A stretch of DNA of 54,657 nucleotides from Sphingobacterium sp. UBA7855. Its GTDB lineage: Bacteria; Bacteroidota; Bacteroidia; Sphingobacteriales; Sphingobacteriaceae. A program made the position numbers and the translations under genes. The notes beneath the pieces were generated by a model that saw only the letters and a list, made by a program, of their open reading frames with translations, had not been told where the DNA came from and did no database searches. The stretch's first letter is position 1. Every line of letters starts with the position of its first letter. Below are positions 6,868 through 13,309 of the stretch, piece by piece. The stretch lies in NCBI GenBank assembly GCA_002500745.1, contig DLST01000022.1:1-54657 (forward strand), written 5' to 3'.

Positions 6868-8409
6868 TTAAGAGCTGCATGAAAGCGTAGAGCATCCTGC
6901 GATATTATCATAGATGGGCGGACGCTTAGCTGAAAATTCTGGAAATATTTCTTGATATGGTTTTTCTAAAGCTTGTGTTAGTTTTAATAACATTGCTGTG
7001 TTTCCGTTACTGATTTCTTCAATACATTGGTAAAGCAAATAGTTTCTTAGTACGAATTTCGGATTTGTTTTTCTCATTAATTCTAGTGACTCTTCTTTTG
7101 AAATTGAATTTAAACGTAAACGGCATCGGTAATGGTCAATAAAATCTTTTAGTTTTTTGAGCTTTTCTTCATTTAAAGGTGTGTATGTAATCGGACTGAA
7201 ATGATCTTTAACATCAGTATCCGTTGTTATTTTTTCCAATTGATTGAAGAATAAGGTATGATCCATTTTAAGGTCCTGCATCAAGCTTTGCCAGTTTGTG
7301 AAAAACACTTCGTCTTCTTTTCTGAGTTCATTAAATCCAAATTTTTTGCAAAGCATTTTATTATTGGCCTCCAAAAAATATACACCAAAATTTCTTAACG
7401 AATTTTCAAGGAATTTTTCATCATTGATGACCGGGTGGAGCGCATTTGCTAATTTCCATAGATTCCACTGTCCTATCTGTGCTTGTCTACCGAACGCATA
7501 TCGTCTTCCAGGCAGATCGGTGGTGTTTGGTGTAAAATTTAAATTATATTCCTCCATGATTGCATAAGGGCCATAATCGATCGTCAATCCCAAAATAGAC
7601 ATGTTATCTGTATTCATTACGCCATGTACAAAGCCGACTCTCAACCACTCTACTATTAGGTCTGCTGTTGATCGACAGACAGTTTCAAAAAAGTCTTTAT
7701 ATTTACGAGTGGTAGAGGGAGCTATGGTGGGAAAGTAATTATCAATAGTAAAATCAAGCAGATCTTGTAATAATTTGTGTTCTCCTTGAGCAAATAGGAA
7801 TTCAAAATGGCCAAAGCGAAGGAACGTGTCTGCAGTTCTTACTACTACCGCCCCTTTTTCGTATTGCGGATTGCCGTTATACATAATATCCCGTATTACA
7901 TCTTCACCTGTGAGGGAGAGGCTCAATGCCCTGGTAGTCGGAACGCCCAAGTGATGCATAGCTTCACTCATTAGGTATTCCCGCACAGAGGATCTTAATA
8001 CAGCCCTTCCATCGGCACGTCTTGAGTAGGGCGTCTCACCAGCACCTTTCCATTGTATTTCCGTTTTTTTACCCTCAAGATTAATGATTTCTCCCGCGAA
8101 AATTGCTCTGCCGTCACCGAGCTGACCAGCCCAATTACCAAATTGATGCCCTGCGTAAGCTGTGGCATACGTCTGAATATTTTTAGGTAGTTGAGAGCCC
8201 ACCAGAAAGTTAAGGTCGTTTTCTTCAAATCCTCCAAGGCCTATTTCCTTCGAAAGAGCATCATTAAAAGCAATTAGTTTGGGTTGTTCAAATCCTGCTG
8301 TTTCAATCGTGGAAAATAAGACTTTTGGCGTAGCTCTCGGTATCGGGCTATTGGAAAAATCGCCAGGAAATCTTTTAAGGAAAGGTTGTTTGATCTGCTC
8401 AATATTCAT
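6868..8409 (-). CDS. selO: protein adenylyltransferase SelO (YdiU/UPF0061 family)
   Basis: The 513-residue protein matches the SelO pseudokinase family, which transfers AMP to Ser, Thr or Tyr of target proteins in redox regulation. Diagnostic stretches are YAGHQFGNWAGQLGDGRA (85-102), QWKGAGETPYSRRADGRA (119-136, Lys121), RTADTFLRFGHFE (191-203), HGVMNTDNMS (262-271) and DYGP (278-281, metal-binding Asp). Length is close to the bacterial norm. The C-terminus ends GCSTLSCSS, with Cys506 and Cys511; in vertebrate SelO a selenocysteine sits in this tail, here the equivalent place is filled by Cys/Ser. The gene is divergent from the ergothioneine operon, a neighbour that also concerns redox balance. 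Confidence 0.93.
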   Translation of the reverse strand: MNIEQIKQPFLKRFPGDFSNSPIPRATPKVLFSTIETAGFEQPKLIAFNDALSKEIGLGGFEENDLNFLVGSQLPKNIQTYATAYAGHQFGNWAGQLGDGRAIFAGEIINLEGKKTEIQWKGAGETPYSRRADGRAVLRSSVREYLMSEAMHHLGVPTTRALSLSLTGEDVIRDIMYNGNPQYEKGAVVVRTADTFLRFGHFEFLFAQGEHKLLQDLLDFTIDNYFPTIAPSTTRKYKDFFETVCRSTADLIVEWLRVGFVHGVMNTDNMSILGLTIDYGPYAIMEEYNLNFTPNTTDLPGRRYAFGRQAQIGQWNLWKLANALHPVINDEKFLENSLRNFGVYFLEANNKMLCKKFGFNELRKEDEVFFTNWQSLMQDLKMDHTLFFNQLEKITTDTDVKDHFSPITYTPLNEEKLKKLKDFIDHYRCRLRLNSISKEESLELMRKTNPKFVLRNYLLYQCIEEISNGNTAMLLKLTQALEKPYQEIFPEFSAKRPPIYDNIAGCSTLSCSS

Positions 8410-8632: not shown

Positions 8633-9616
8633 ATGAGTCTACAAGTTGATAGTGTCGTCAAAGAGATCGGAAATTATGAAGGTAATTTTCATAAGGACGT
8701 GATGGAAGGTTTAAATACTTATCCCAAGAAATTATATTCAAAATATTTTTATGATCCTATCGGCGACCGGCTTTTTCAGGACATTATGCAGATGCCGGAT
8801 TATTACCTGACAGACTGTGAACTCGAAATTTTTAGCACAAAGACATCGGAAATGGCTGAGCTCATCTCTTCCGACGATTCTGCTTTCGACCTCATTGAAC
8901 TGGGGGCTGGTGATGCGCTTAAATCAAGTCATTTATTAAGACATCTTAGTAAAAATGATATCGATTATTCCTACATGCCAATAGATATATCAGGCAATAT
9001 CCTTAAGGTATTGTGTGAAAAATTATCCAAAGAAATTCCAAATTTAGAGACTTTTCCTTTAGAGGGTGAATATTTTGAGATGCTGAATGAGGCAATGAAA
9101 ATATCCGACCGTCGAAAAGTAGTCTTATTTTTAGGGGGCAACATTGGTAACATGGATATGGAAGAAGCACAACTGTTTTGTGCTGAAATTCGTCGCAGAT
9201 TGAGTCCCGGCGATATATTTATTATTGGTTTTGACTTAAAAAAAAATCCTCACACCATTCTCTCTGCATATAATGATAAATCTGGAATTACTTCGGCATT
9301 CAATATTAATTTGCTTAGTCGTATAAATCGGGAACTCGGCGCAAACTTCGATACGCAATATTTTCAGCATTATCAGACTTATGATCCTATTTCTGGCGCT
9401 TGTAGAAGCTTTCTGGTTAGTTTAACTAATCAATATGTACACATTAAAGGAGATTCTATTTTTTTTAAGGAAAATGAATTGATTGACATGGAAATTTCAC
9501 AGAAATATTCGCTTGAGGAAATTCAACGTCTTTCTTCTTTGGCAGGATTTGAACTGTTGGTAAATTTGAATGATGACAAAGGTTGGTTTGTAGATTCCAT
9601 TTGGATGGTAGCGTAA
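8633..9616 (+). CDS. egtD: L-histidine N-alpha-methyltransferase EgtD
   Basis: EgtD trimethylates histidine with S-adenosylmethionine to give hercynine, the first step of ergothioneine synthesis. The 327-residue protein shows the family opening LPKKLYSKYFYDP-like segment (YPKKLYSKYFYDPIGDRLF, 30-48), PDYYLTDCE (55-63), the SAM site ELGAGD (89-94) and FLGGNIGN (166-173), which replaces the usual F-x-G-S-T-I-G-N. Length matches the family. It is first of four genes spaced by 12, 1 and -4 bases, so it leads an operon with egtB and an ABC transporter. The ATG at 8633 gives the normal N-terminus; no strong Shine-Dalgarno is seen, which is normal for this phylum. Confidence 0.93.
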   Translation: MSLQVDSVVKEIGNYEGNFHKDVMEGLNTYPKKLYSKYFYDPIGDRLFQDIMQMPDYYLTDCELEIFSTKTSEMAELISSDDSAFDLIELGAGDALKSSHLLRHLSKNDIDYSYMPIDISGNILKVLCEKLSKEIPNLETFPLEGEYFEMLNEAMKISDRRKVVLFLGGNIGNMDMEEAQLFCAEIRRRLSPGDIFIIGFDLKKNPHTILSAYNDKSGITSAFNINLLSRINRELGANFDTQYFQHYQTYDPISGACRSFLVSLTNQYVHIKGDSIFFKENELIDMEISQKYSLEEIQRLSSLAGFELLVNLNDDKGWFVDSIWMVA

Positions 9617-9628
9617 TTATAATCTTTT

Positions 9629-10822
9629 ATGAAAAATATAAATTTAGCAGTTAGCGTATTGCCAGAAAAAGAAGTGTTAAATGCCAGATATCTTACAGTA
9701 AGAGGCTATTCCGAAGAAATCTGCCAGCCATTGGAAATTGAAGACTATGTAGTTCAGCCAATGGTTGATGTTAGTCCACCAAAATGGCATCTTGGGCATA
9801 CTACTTGGTTTTTTGAAACCTTTATATTGATTCCTCACCTGCCAAATTACCAAGTTTTTGATAAGGAATACAACTTCGTTTTCAACAGCTATTACGAAAC
9901 CATAGGTTCGCGGGTGATTCGAACGGACCGAGGTAATCTTAGCAGGCCATCAGTAGCAGACATCTATAATTACCGACGATACGTTGATAGGTATATGATC
10001 GAATTTTTGAATGGAGGATTTTTGACGCAAAATCTTATTGATATTTTTGTTTTAGGTTTAAATCACGAGCAGCAACACCAAGAGTTGCTACTCACTGATA
10101 TAAAATATATATTGGGGCATAATCCTCTTTTTCCTCCCTATAGCAAAGAAAATAAAACAGCTGAATGCATTAATTATGAGAGGGAGTATGTTAGATTTGA
10201 GGCCGGAATTTATGAAATTGGATTCGAGGGACAGGGTTTCTGTTTTGATAACGAACTGGGAAGACATAAGGTCTACCTAGATGATTTCGAAATTGAAAAT
10301 ACCTTGGTCACAAATAAACAGTATCTTGATTTCATAGAGGCTGGGGGATATTTAGACTTTCAATTTTGGCATGCGGAAGGATGGGATTGGGTGAAAAAAC
10401 ATCAAGCAAAAGCGCCTTTATATTGGCATATGATTGATGGGAAGTGGATGAACTATACCCTCAACGGGTTGACAGATATCGACTTAGAAGACGCGGTTTG
10501 CCACATTAATTTTTATGAAGCTGCTGCGTATGCATCTTGGAGAGGTGTGCGACTCCCGACAGAGGCGGAATGGGAAGTTGCAGCCGACCACATTAGGTGG
10601 GGAGAACGTTGGGAATGGACAAGTTCCGCTTATCTTCCTTATCCGAAATTTAAAAAAGAGGCGGGTGCGGTAGGTGAATATAATGGCAAATTTATGATTA
10701 ATCAAATGGTGTTAAGGGGAGCTTCTATCGCTACACCAAAGGGCCATAGCCGTAAGACTTACAGAAACTTTTTTCAAACCGCACATCAGTGGCAGTTTAC
10801 AGGAATTAGATTAGCCAGGTAA
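9629..10822 (+). CDS. egtB: ergothioneine biosynthesis sulfoxide synthase EgtB
   Basis: EgtB is a non-heme iron enzyme that couples hercynine to a cysteine-type thiol using oxygen. The 397-residue protein has an N-terminal DinB-like helical domain with the iron ligands expected at His57 (KWHLGHTTWFFE), His146 and His150 (LNHEQQHQEL). FNSYYE (85-90) and RGNLSRP (101-107) are family marks. From about residue 190 it carries a formylglycine-generating-enzyme-like fold (VRLPTEAEWEVAAD, WEWTSS). It is somewhat shorter than the mycobacterial type but complete. There is no C-terminal methyltransferase, which argues against OvoA. Neither EgtC nor the PLP lyase EgtE is encoded beside it. The next gene starts 1 base after its stop. 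Confidence 0.92.
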   Translation: MKNINLAVSVLPEKEVLNARYLTVRGYSEEICQPLEIEDYVVQPMVDVSPPKWHLGHTTWFFETFILIPHLPNYQVFDKEYNFVFNSYYETIGSRVIRTDRGNLSRPSVADIYNYRRYVDRYMIEFLNGGFLTQNLIDIFVLGLNHEQQHQELLLTDIKYILGHNPLFPPYSKENKTAECINYEREYVRFEAGIYEIGFEGQGFCFDNELGRHKVYLDDFEIENTLVTNKQYLDFIEAGGYLDFQFWHAEGWDWVKKHQAKAPLYWHMIDGKWMNYTLNGLTDIDLEDAVCHINFYEAAAYASWRGVRLPTEAEWEVAADHIRWGERWEWTSSAYLPYPKFKKEAGAVGEYNGKFMINQMVLRGASIATPKGHSRKTYRNFFQTAHQWQFTGIRLAR

Positions 10823-10823
10823 T

Positions 10824-11744
10824 ATGGTCGAGATCGACTCAGTATCCAAATCATTTAACGGTAAGGCGGCCGTTGACGACATCTCAATAGAAGTGAGAGC
10901 GGGTGAAGTTCTTGTTATTTTGGGTACCAGTGGTTGTGGTAAAACCACTACTTTAAGAATGATTAATAGGCTGATTGAACCCGATAAGGGCAAGATTTTT
11001 ATCCGAGGTAAAGATATATCCAAACGGCGGCCGGAAGATTTGCGTAGAGAAATTGGTTTCGTAATGCAGCATGCTGGCCTTTTCCCCCATTACACCATAG
11101 CCAAAAATATTGCTGTTGTTCCAGAATTGCTGAACTGGCAAAAGAAAAAAATTAAGGATCGCACGGTTGAGCTTCTTGGCAAATTAAATTTAGGAGAGGA
11201 TCTGTTAAAGCTCTACCCACATCAATTGAGCGGAGGGCAACAACAGCGCGTAGGTATAGCAAGGGCGTTAATAGCCAATTCCCCTATACTGTTGATGGAT
11301 GAACCCTTCTCGGCACTGGATAACATGACTAGAAGTGGCATCCATGCCGAATTCAAACTGTTGGAAGAGATCCGAAGCAAAACTATTGTCTTGGTTACAC
11401 ATGATGTGCCTGAAGCTTTTGAACTTGGACATCGTATCTGTTTGATGGATGAGGGAAAGATTGTACAGATTGGAACGCCTAAAGAGCTACTGTATCGTCC
11501 AGCAAATGAATTTGTGTTTGATTTTTTTTTAGAAAATCGCTTGCTGTTGGAGTATAAAGTAACGATCCTACATGAATTAAAAGGAATTATAGTCTTGGAT
11601 CATTTCATCAATACCTATGGTTTTTCTGAAAACACAGACCTATGGCGTGTTTTACAGGTATTAAGCGCACGTGCGGATGCCATATTAGACTATGAAAAAA
11701 TATTGGTTGCATTCAACACGTATAGAAAACAGCAGGTGGTATGA
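10824..11744 (+). CDS. ABC transporter ATPase, betaine/ergothioneine (OpuCA/EgtV) type
   Basis: The 306-residue cytoplasmic ATPase has Walker A GTSGCGKTT (34-42), Q-loop VMQHAGLFPHY (80-90), signature LSGGQQQR (135-142), Walker B ILLMDEP (155-161) and H-loop VTHD. The sequence type is that of quaternary-amine (OpuCA/ProV-like) importers, the group that also includes EgtV. The C-terminal 65 residues form an extension without a recognisable CBS pair. It starts 1 base after egtB and overlaps the permease gene by 4 bases, so it is part of the same operon. The placement suggests that ergothioneine or a precursor such as hercynine or a betaine is the cargo; sequence alone does not prove it. Confidence 0.88.
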   Translation: MVEIDSVSKSFNGKAAVDDISIEVRAGEVLVILGTSGCGKTTTLRMINRLIEPDKGKIFIRGKDISKRRPEDLRREIGFVMQHAGLFPHYTIAKNIAVVPELLNWQKKKIKDRTVELLGKLNLGEDLLKLYPHQLSGGQQQRVGIARALIANSPILLMDEPFSALDNMTRSGIHAEFKLLEEIRSKTIVLVTHDVPEAFELGHRICLMDEGKIVQIGTPKELLYRPANEFVFDFFLENRLLLEYKVTILHELKGIIVLDHFINTYGFSENTDLWRVLQVLSARADAILDYEKILVAFNTYRKQQVV

Positions 11745-13309
11745 CGGAACAAACTCTTTGGCAATTCGTACTTGAGCAGCGGGAAAAGTTATTGATACAG
11801 GTCTGGCAGCATTTAGAACTTACATTTTTATCTTTGACATTTGCCATTCTTATTGGAGTACCTTTGGGCATATTGATTTCGAGGAAAAAGAAATTTGCTG
11901 CTATTGTTTTAGCTTTTGCAGGGATTTTACAGACTGTTCCTAGTATTGCATTACTGGGGTTTCTTATTCCAATCCTAGGTATTGGTCCAATTCCAGCTAT
12001 TGTTGCACTTCTTATTTATGCACTTTTACCCATTATTAGGAATACTTATACCGGAATTATTAGTGTAGACCATAGTATCTCGGAATCGGCGAAAGCTATG
12101 GGTATGACGGATTGGCAAATACTATTCAAAGTTCAACTTCCACTGGCGATACCGGTGATTGTCGCCGGAGTTCGGACAGCCGCAGTGATCAATGTAGGCG
12201 TCGCAACCTTAGCATCATTCGTTGCGGCCGGCGGATTGGGTGAATTTATCTTTGGCGGTATATCACTCAATAATTCCAATATGATCTTAGCGGGAGCTAT
12301 TCCCGCTGCTTTATTGGCGATACTTTTAGATAAAGGTATTGGATTGCTACAAAATGCTTTCGCTAACTTCAGACTTTTGCTCATCTTTATTTTGCCTAGC
12401 TTTCTTCTTATTCTTGCTATCATCTATATAAGAACAAACAATGTTAATCAGCAGATAAAGGCTGGTTTTACACCCGAATTTATGGGACGCCAAGATGGTT
12501 ACTTAGGTCTCCGCAATGTTTATGGGCTACAGATAAAGCCGCTTATCATTAGCGATGCGATTATGTATAAAGCCGTTTTTGAAAAGGATATCGATCTTAT
12601 TAGTGGATATTCAACTGACGGTCGCGTCAAAGCTTATGATTTGCTTGCATTGGAAGATAACAGGAAGATTTTTCCGCCCTACTTTGCCGCACCGATTGTA
12701 AAGGTAGAGACGCTCAAGAAATTTCCACAATTGGAAGGGGCAATAAATCTATTGGCAGAGAAGTTTACTGATTCGGTGATGATTAGCCTTAACTATAGGG
12801 CTGATTTCCTAAAGCAAACTCCTGAAAATATTGCCAAGGACTTTTTAGTGCAAAACAAACTCTATAGACCATCACGCCGAGGTCAGGCTGGCACCATCAG
12901 GATAGGTTCTAAAATTTTTGGGGAACAATACATTTTGTCGGCCATTTATAAAATTCTCCTTGAAGGGTATACCGATTATAAAGTGGAGACAAAGACAGGG
13001 CTCGGCGGAACCAAAATTTGCTTTGATGCTTTGATACATGACGCCATAGACTTTTACGTGGAGTATACAGGGACAGGGCTTCTGGTATTACTGAAACCGG
13101 AGCAACAAATTATATCCCATGTGTCCAAAGATCCTGCTGACACCTATAACTATGTAAAGGGTGAATTTGAGAATAAATTTGGCATTACTTGGTTAAAACC
13201 TCTTGGTTTTAATAATTCATATGCTCTAATGATGCGGCGTTCTCAAGCTGAACAAAATCAAATCCGAAGTATTAGCGACCTAAAAAAATACGAACAACTT
13301 AATAAGTAA
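11741..13309 (+). CDS. ABC permease fused to a circularly permuted substrate-binding domain (OpuC/EgtU type)
   Basis: The 522-residue protein joins an inner-membrane permease (1-210, with QTVPSIALLGFL at 64-75 and the EAA-like loop near 115-130) through a further helix (about 212-230) to a binding domain facing the periplasm. Residues 240-372 read GFTPEFMGRQDGYLGL, YSTDGRVKAYDLLALEDN and FPPYFAAPIV, which in OpuCC/EgtU-type binding proteins form the second part. Residues 385-522 read RIGSKIFGEQYIL, GLGGTKICFDAL, VEYTGTG and WLKPLGFNNSYALMMRR...ISDLKKY, which normally form the first part. The order is therefore swapped, with the break between SDLKKYEQLNK and KAGFTPEF. It overlaps the ATPase gene by 4 bases. 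A fused permease/binding protein is the EgtU arrangement of Helicobacter; choline or glycine betaine are alternative cargoes. Confidence 0.88.
   Translation: MTEQTLWQFVLEQREKLLIQVWQHLELTFLSLTFAILIGVPLGILISRKKKFAAIVLAFAGILQTVPSIALLGFLIPILGIGPIPAIVALLIYALLPIIRNTYTGIISVDHSISESAKAMGMTDWQILFKVQLPLAIPVIVAGVRTAAVINVGVATLASFVAAGGLGEFIFGGISLNNSNMILAGAIPAALLAILLDKGIGLLQNAFANFRLLLIFILPSFLLILAIIYIRTNNVNQQIKAGFTPEFMGRQDGYLGLRNVYGLQIKPLIISDAIMYKAVFEKDIDLISGYSTDGRVKAYDLLALEDNRKIFPPYFAAPIVKVETLKKFPQLEGAINLLAEKFTDSVMISLNYRADFLKQTPENIAKDFLVQNKLYRPSRRGQAGTIRIGSKIFGEQYILSAIYKILLEGYTDYKVETKTGLGGTKICFDALIHDAIDFYVEYTGTGLLVLLKPEQQIISHVSKDPADTYNYVKGEFENKFGITWLKPLGFNNSYALMMRRSQAEQNQIRSISDLKKYEQLNK

Follow-up and report, generated by a model that had tools for sequence, protein, structure and literature searches.

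The 54,657-nucleotide stretch analysed here, referred to as the window, is contig DLST01000022.1 of Sphingobacterium sp. UBA7855 (assembly GCA_002500745.1, positions 1 to 54,657, forward strand). It carries a same-strand operon in the order egtD-egtB-ATPase-fusion, whose last gene encodes a permease and a substrate-binding domain in one chain and is the subject of this work (Table 1). The start of this fusion gene overlaps the stop of the ATPase gene by four bases, and the opposite strand of the fusion stretch holds no open reading frame (ORF) of 80 codons or more apart from one of 96 codons. A preliminary description had proposed a binding domain whose two halves are exchanged; the ORF is open, and the motifs quoted from it read as given. 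Throughout, T denotes the permease and N and C the N-half and C-half of the binding domain, so that this fusion is T-C-N. We conclude that it is probably the membrane and binding chain of an ATP-binding cassette (ABC) importer that takes up a carboxylated quaternary amine, with a circularly permuted domain of the EgtU/OpuC/ProX family.

The exchange of the halves is evident in both profile and pairwise alignments. The permease profile PF00528 (BPD_transp_1) matches residues 39-205 of the fusion. The domain belongs to PF04069 (OpuAC family; 183.1 bits, cut-off 21.2), which is matched in two stretches; the top stretch, residues 385-519, corresponds to positions 2-113 of the 257-position profile, i.e. 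the first half of the family. In the same ORF of the nearest genome, profile positions 113-255 lie upstream and 2-124 downstream. Against S. pneumoniae EgtUC, residues 235-374 of the fusion align with positions 135-274 of the chain and residues 387-518 with positions 9-136. The halves align in swapped order with the acetylcholine-sensor binding protein too, and the top-scoring stretch against the OpuBC/OpuCC and AfProX chains is consistent with the same swap. A circular permutant is one in which both halves are homologous to the parent, here of the EgtU/OpuC/ProX type, with their order swapped, and this is what the alignments give. The EgtUC and acetylcholine-sensor alignments bear out the claim that the halves run opposite to the EgtU/OpuC-type order; the normal order of both halves, which would have told against it, was not observed. 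Of the motifs, KAGFTPEF begins at residue 240, SDLKKY at 512 and RIGSK at 387 (not 385, as first placed), and the chain opening proposed between SDLKKYEQLNK and KAGFTPEF is correct to within a few residues.

Positive controls came out in other orders. When each of the three pieces was scanned for separately, the Leuconostoc (L173), Synechocystis (L172) and Cetobacterium (L175) fusions read T-N-C, Cytobacillus (L174) gave a separate permease and N-C protein, and in a Bacteroidota N-C-T protein (L051) PF04069 is matched in a single stretch (profile 3-257). The swapped order recurs in 121 of 121 proteins (P0001, the fusion protein of the window, and 120 others) and at all 80 named loci from GTDB genomes, which rank as the top 80 among at least 587 relatives; this excludes chance or assembly error. 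A chimeric assembly or a decayed tandem gene is refuted by the same counts and can be set aside almost entirely, the more so as all 16 aligned rows finish within about a dozen residues of an ISDL-like motif.

A structural model of residues 234-522 predicts one confident domain (pLDDT 94.2, pTM 0.90), so that the failure to form a single fold that the preliminary description had named as grounds for rejecting its reading (residues 240-522) does not appear in the model. The predicted fold is OpuAC-like, and in this prediction the C-half matches EgtUC structures. OpuAC of B. subtilis was the top chain-order structural match among the matches listed; the binding domain of the fusion has the chain topology of OpuAC, and the new ends of the opened chain lie near those of OpuAC. 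The fused subunit of OpuA from L. lactis (7ahd/7ahh) shares this flytrap chain order and also runs from permease to domain. These likenesses would suit a plain OpuAC-family member that inherited its order, with no new permutation, an explanation we consider improbable. Sequence identity to EgtUC reaches 42-43% across the matched half, as against 14-16% to OpuAC, and by sequence the fusion has tyrosines at four cage positions (Tyr290, Tyr314, Tyr442 and Tyr494), whereas OpuAC is described with Trp at its quaternary-amine site (PMC9732360). Were the OpuAC order ancestral to the whole group, the canonical members would have been permuted back, so that one event inside the group would remain. Circular permutation is in print for the glycine-betaine-binding proteins 2b4l, 1r9l and 1sw1 (PMC2395249); this is the ProX versus OpuAC permutation mentioned in the preliminary description.

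The opening of the chain changes which lobe is attached to the membrane. In EgtUC, lobe D1 comprises residues 233-331 and 445-506 and lobe D2 residues 341-432 (PMC9732360). Mapped onto the fusion, D1 becomes one block and D2 falls into two pieces, one of which follows an additional hydrophobic helix (Table 1). From the split of D2 and the position of this helix, the permease is tethered to D2 here and to D1 in EgtU. The helix would place the C-terminal domain at the outer face, and in a homodimeric permease the lobe neighbouring its own permease half would be exchanged relative to EgtU. We envisage that two fusion chains and two ATPase subunits, encoded directly upstream, would pair into one importer, in which the helix would lead each chain from the membrane out to a Venus-flytrap domain that by sequence belongs to the EgtU/OpuC/ProX family. 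In this domain a short linker would join the old ends, the chain being opened inside D2, and the tether to D2 would amount to the connectivity of OpuAC and the OpuA fused subunit, reached in a different sequence family.

The two halves might instead associate in trans as a domain swap in the dimer, each C-half joining the N-half of the other chain. Two copies per transporter are expected, and the joint tolerates changes, long inserts included: four of 75 proteins (P0253-P0256) carry a low-complexity insert of ~60-70 residues there, between about residues 372 and 445, and P0315 carries a shorter one. Such inserts are also expected of a surface joint. Trans pairing is nevertheless unlikely, given that one chain models as a compact single domain at the pTM quoted above and that three relatives with two permease domains (P0126, P0128 and P0134) would be left without a partner half unless such chains pair.

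Table 1 Features of the fusion gene and its operon. Positions are those of the window, residues those of the fusion protein.
Feature	Position	Strand	Details
Permease/permuted substrate-binding-domain fusion gene	11741..13309	+	Open ORF, 522 aa
Permease (transmembrane) domain	11741..12385	+	Residues 1-215
Additional hydrophobic helix	12374..12430	+	Residues 212-230; Kyte-Doolittle peak 3.02
C-terminal half of binding domain (EgtUC 367 onward), comes first	12452..12868	+	Residues 238-376
Joint between the two old ends	12869..12892	+	Residues 377-384
N-terminal half of binding domain (to about EgtUC 366), comes last	12893..13306	+	Residues 385-522; PF04069 profile 2-113
Lobe D1, now contiguous	12686..13192	+	Residues 316-484; EgtUC lobe borders (PMC9732360) mapped over
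Lobe D2, part one, tethered to membrane domain	12458..12649	+	Residues 240-303; mapped EgtUC borders
Lobe D2, part two, now the chain end	13220..13306	+	Residues 494-522; mapped EgtUC borders
egtD-like histidine N-alpha-methyltransferase gene, first of operon	8633..9616	+	TIGR03438 275.6 bits, slightly below cut-off 290.9; PF10017 314 bits
egtB	9629..10822	+	Ergothioneine biosynthesis protein EgtB; TIGR03440 535 bits (cut-off 360); SenA model 351 (cut-off 420)
ABC ATPase, ProV-like permease partner	10824..11744	+	PF00005; top NCBIfam proV TIGR01186, below cut-off

The distribution of the permuted order was followed in three samples. Among 395 Bacteroidota genomes searched with P0001 (E <= 1e-30), 53 gave a match, of which 22 are T-C-N, the order of the window, and 31 are N-C-T (L042-L072), so that the survey of Bacteroidota fusions proposed in the preliminary description returns both. 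The N-C-T fusions are built from the same pieces, with the ATPase gene beside them at 30 of 31 loci; they differ in that the binding domain, in normal order, precedes the permease. No T-N-C fusion occurs among the 53 matches, at a threshold that may miss distant ones. One importer comes in three chain orders, T-C-N, T-N-C and N-C-T. The 80 named loci span genera that include Chryseobacterium, Epilithonimonas, Mucilaginibacter, Pedobacter, Chitinophaga, Dyadobacter, Spirosoma, Hymenobacter and Lewinella. A third set of 316 proteins combines P0001 and P0002-P0121 with P0122-P0241 and P0242-P0316, from three database searches, each of which listed its 120 best hits out of about 8000. Here 313 proteins, P0001 included, are T-C-N, and the other three have a second permease domain ahead of a single permuted binding domain (T-T-C-N; P0126, 788 aa; P0128, 779 aa; P0134, 805 aa). 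In an importer of the T-T-C-N type, two permease halves would share one binding domain.

Source names outside Bacteroidota include Geitlerinema, Baaleninema, Microcoleaceae, Myxosarcina and other Cyanobacteriota, as well as Scalinduaceae, Aminicenantes, KSB1, Thermodesulfobacteriota and Melainabacteria; many entries are metagenome bins, so individual taxon names may be wrong. The sources call the permuted proteins "permease/substrate-binding protein" or "osmoprotectant transport system permease", and the swap is not visible in their precomputed Pfam domain lists. Trees of the quick kind were built from the permease with both halves and from the binding domain (in both cases with eight near-duplicate rows dropped and one permease used per T-T-C-N row), and from the permease by itself. 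In the first, 42 T-C-N rows, including the three T-T-C-N, lie on one side of a branch with a Shimodaira-Hasegawa-like approximate likelihood ratio test (SH-aLRT) support of 98, and 28 N-C-T rows group together with 99. The corresponding values are 94 and 99 for the binding domain, and 77 (36 T-C-N rows) and 93 (31 N-C-T rows) for the permease. The swapped order marks a clade that extends past Bacteroidota, for which a single origin of the permutation would be the simplest reading of these trees. As the T-N-C rows are few and sit on long branches, the root and the direction of change are uncertain. The T-T-C-N rows fall at two places, and this second fusion therefore probably arose twice.

With respect to the binding site, the fusion retains most of the EgtUC contacts. 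Those to the quaternary amine are kept at N492, Y494, Y290 and Y314, with Tyr442 in place of Phe293 as the fourth aromatic of the cage; those to the carboxylate at K391, T445 and R250; and those to the imidazole at E246 and T424. The pocket, with its four Tyr, its Asn and the Lys/Thr/Arg set for a carboxylate, is retained through the permutation. Across 47 T-C-N rows these residues are constant or nearly so, Y290 excepted, and the pocket is nearly the same in seven members from other phyla. In the acetylcholine-sensor binding protein, Lys391 corresponds to Ile and Arg250 to Lys, which would make a carboxylated ligand likelier than choline. I243 was considered as an ergothioneine marker and rejected: the position is hydrophobic in many permuted proteins, yet Lys or His in the six N-C-T proteins with egtB within 10 kb.

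The operon context points to a more specific substrate. Genes for egtB were found in the fetched flanks of 61 of the 80 named loci and were absent from those of 19, where some contigs are short; the gene order is ATPase-fusion-egtB-egtD at 47 loci and egtD-egtB-ATPase-fusion at 8, with others besides. Genome-wide (E <= 1e-30), egtB is present in 20 of the 22 T-C-N genomes and 25 of the 31 N-C-T genomes, compared with 68 of 342 genomes that have neither fusion (for each architecture Fisher p is about 1e-11, uncorrected for relatedness). In 14/22 T-C-N and 6/31 N-C-T genomes, egtB and the transporter share a contig and are no more than 10 kb apart. The nearest genome has no further PF04069 match. 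The last step of ergothioneine synthesis is performed by the C-S lyase EgtE, whose gene is not among the four operon genes (8633-13309; no genome-wide search was made); this step would be encoded elsewhere or performed by another enzyme. Divergent from egtD lies a SelO-type protein adenylyltransferase gene (6868-8409, minus strand; PF02696, 415.9 bits). SelO is tied to redox biology.

Weighting this operon evidence above the pocket residues, we propose ergothioneine or hercynine as the substrate, which gene context makes slightly the better choice. In the branch of the window, one of the two would most likely be imported, or recaptured, by cells also able to synthesise it. The same permuted importer might instead carry a general osmoprotectant (glycine betaine, carnitine or proline betaine), with the egtBD linkage reflecting a shared stress regulon; we rate this as less probable, though a serious contender, and the pocket speaks for it. 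Affinity for ergothioneine is ascribed to G244 and a Y-to-F switch (F293, Y337) (PMC9732360). In the fusion these positions are Phe393, Tyr442 and Phe490, so that all three discriminating positions have the Phe/Tyr/Phe state given for AfProX in that paper, and nearly the same pocket recurs in the other phyla. Against the osmoprotectant reading, egtB is associated with both architectures (45/53 genomes versus 68/342), and its adjacency survives several rearranged gene orders, which a shared substrate explains better. Other subclusters without the ergothioneine-affinity features may differ in specificity or be less strict, and Helicobacter work shows that some such transporters import ergothioneine at lower affinity (both from PMC9732360, the latter as cited there).

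Several observations weigh against the overall interpretation. The ergothioneine determinants are largely absent across the aligned permuted proteins as well: all 47 T-C-N rows have Tyr at the F293 position and Phe at the Y337 position, and 43 of 47 have Phe at the G244 position, where the same method reads G, F and Y from the Leuconostoc T-N-C protein. At the cage position Tyr290, 8 of the 47 rows have Phe and 1 has Ser. Of the T-C-N genomes, 2/22 have no egtB at the threshold and 8/22 have none on the transporter's contig within 10 kb, the latter of which also suits an osmoprotectant, and the co-occurrence counts take no account of shared ancestry. One of the 22 T-C-N genomes (G099, locus L024) has an in-frame stop within the match. 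The full-length model reaches a pTM of 0.65 and is weak at residues 164-177, leaving the relation of the two domains unpredicted, and in Foldseek AfProX (3mam) and H. pylori EgtU (8dp6) cover most of the binding-domain model, badly (TM 0.37-0.41, rmsd 8-9 A). The permutation may have originated by duplication of the binding domain and trimming; intermediates such as T-N-C-N-C or other duplicated-domain forms were not found in the 316 proteins or the 53 sampled loci. Taken together, we put forward only tentatively, and at somewhat less than even confidence, the full account in which a multi-phylum clade fixed a permutation of the EgtU/OpuC domain once, converging on OpuAC connectivity and moving the tether from D1 to D2; in which Bacteroidota members couple ergothioneine or hercynine import to synthesis with a pocket that lacks supposedly necessary residues; and in which a T-T-C-N version works with one binding domain.

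The permuted importer can be placed among known systems by its pieces. EgtU (EgtUBC; S. pneumoniae spd_1642, L. monocytogenes BilEB) likewise has permease and binding domain in one chain; it differs in running permease-N-C where the window fusion runs permease-C-N, and in the F293, G244 and Y337 that are replaced here. AfProX, OpuBC and OpuCC are separate binding proteins. They match the fusion in sequence and in a Tyr cage as described in PMC9732360, and differ in their normal order, the window domain being permuted and fused to a permease. TpMglB-2 of Treponema pallidum, a substrate-binding protein, is circularly permuted in nature and still binds its ligand, and the authors of that work propose tethering as a possible reason for the permutation (PMC4990184); unlike the protein studied here, it belongs to a type I sugar-binding class and is a lipoprotein, not a permease fusion. 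The permutation in the fusion may confer an advantage. The permuted topology of OpuAC, the fold and the transporter class are already known. Among the matches listed from the open-licence PMC literature, there is no description of a permuted EgtU/OpuC fusion or of egtBD adjoining such a transporter, and the main text of PMC9732360, the paper on EgtU, does not contain the Bacteroidota name stem. Within those matches, a clade-marking permutation in EgtU/OpuC fusions and its link to egtBD are apparently without prior report, and the permuted family is apparently both large and undescribed.

Here a natural permutation spans a clade, and relatives without it occur in the same phylum, in part also with a shared operon context, which offers a clean test of the costs and benefits of chain topology. 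Folding, docking and the identity of the tethered lobe can be compared across T-C-N, T-N-C and N-C-T versions of one importer. For Bacteroidota, the egtBD linkage provides a testable hypothesis of ergothioneine transport, and it puts in question the residue rule of PMC9732360 for recognising ergothioneine transporters.
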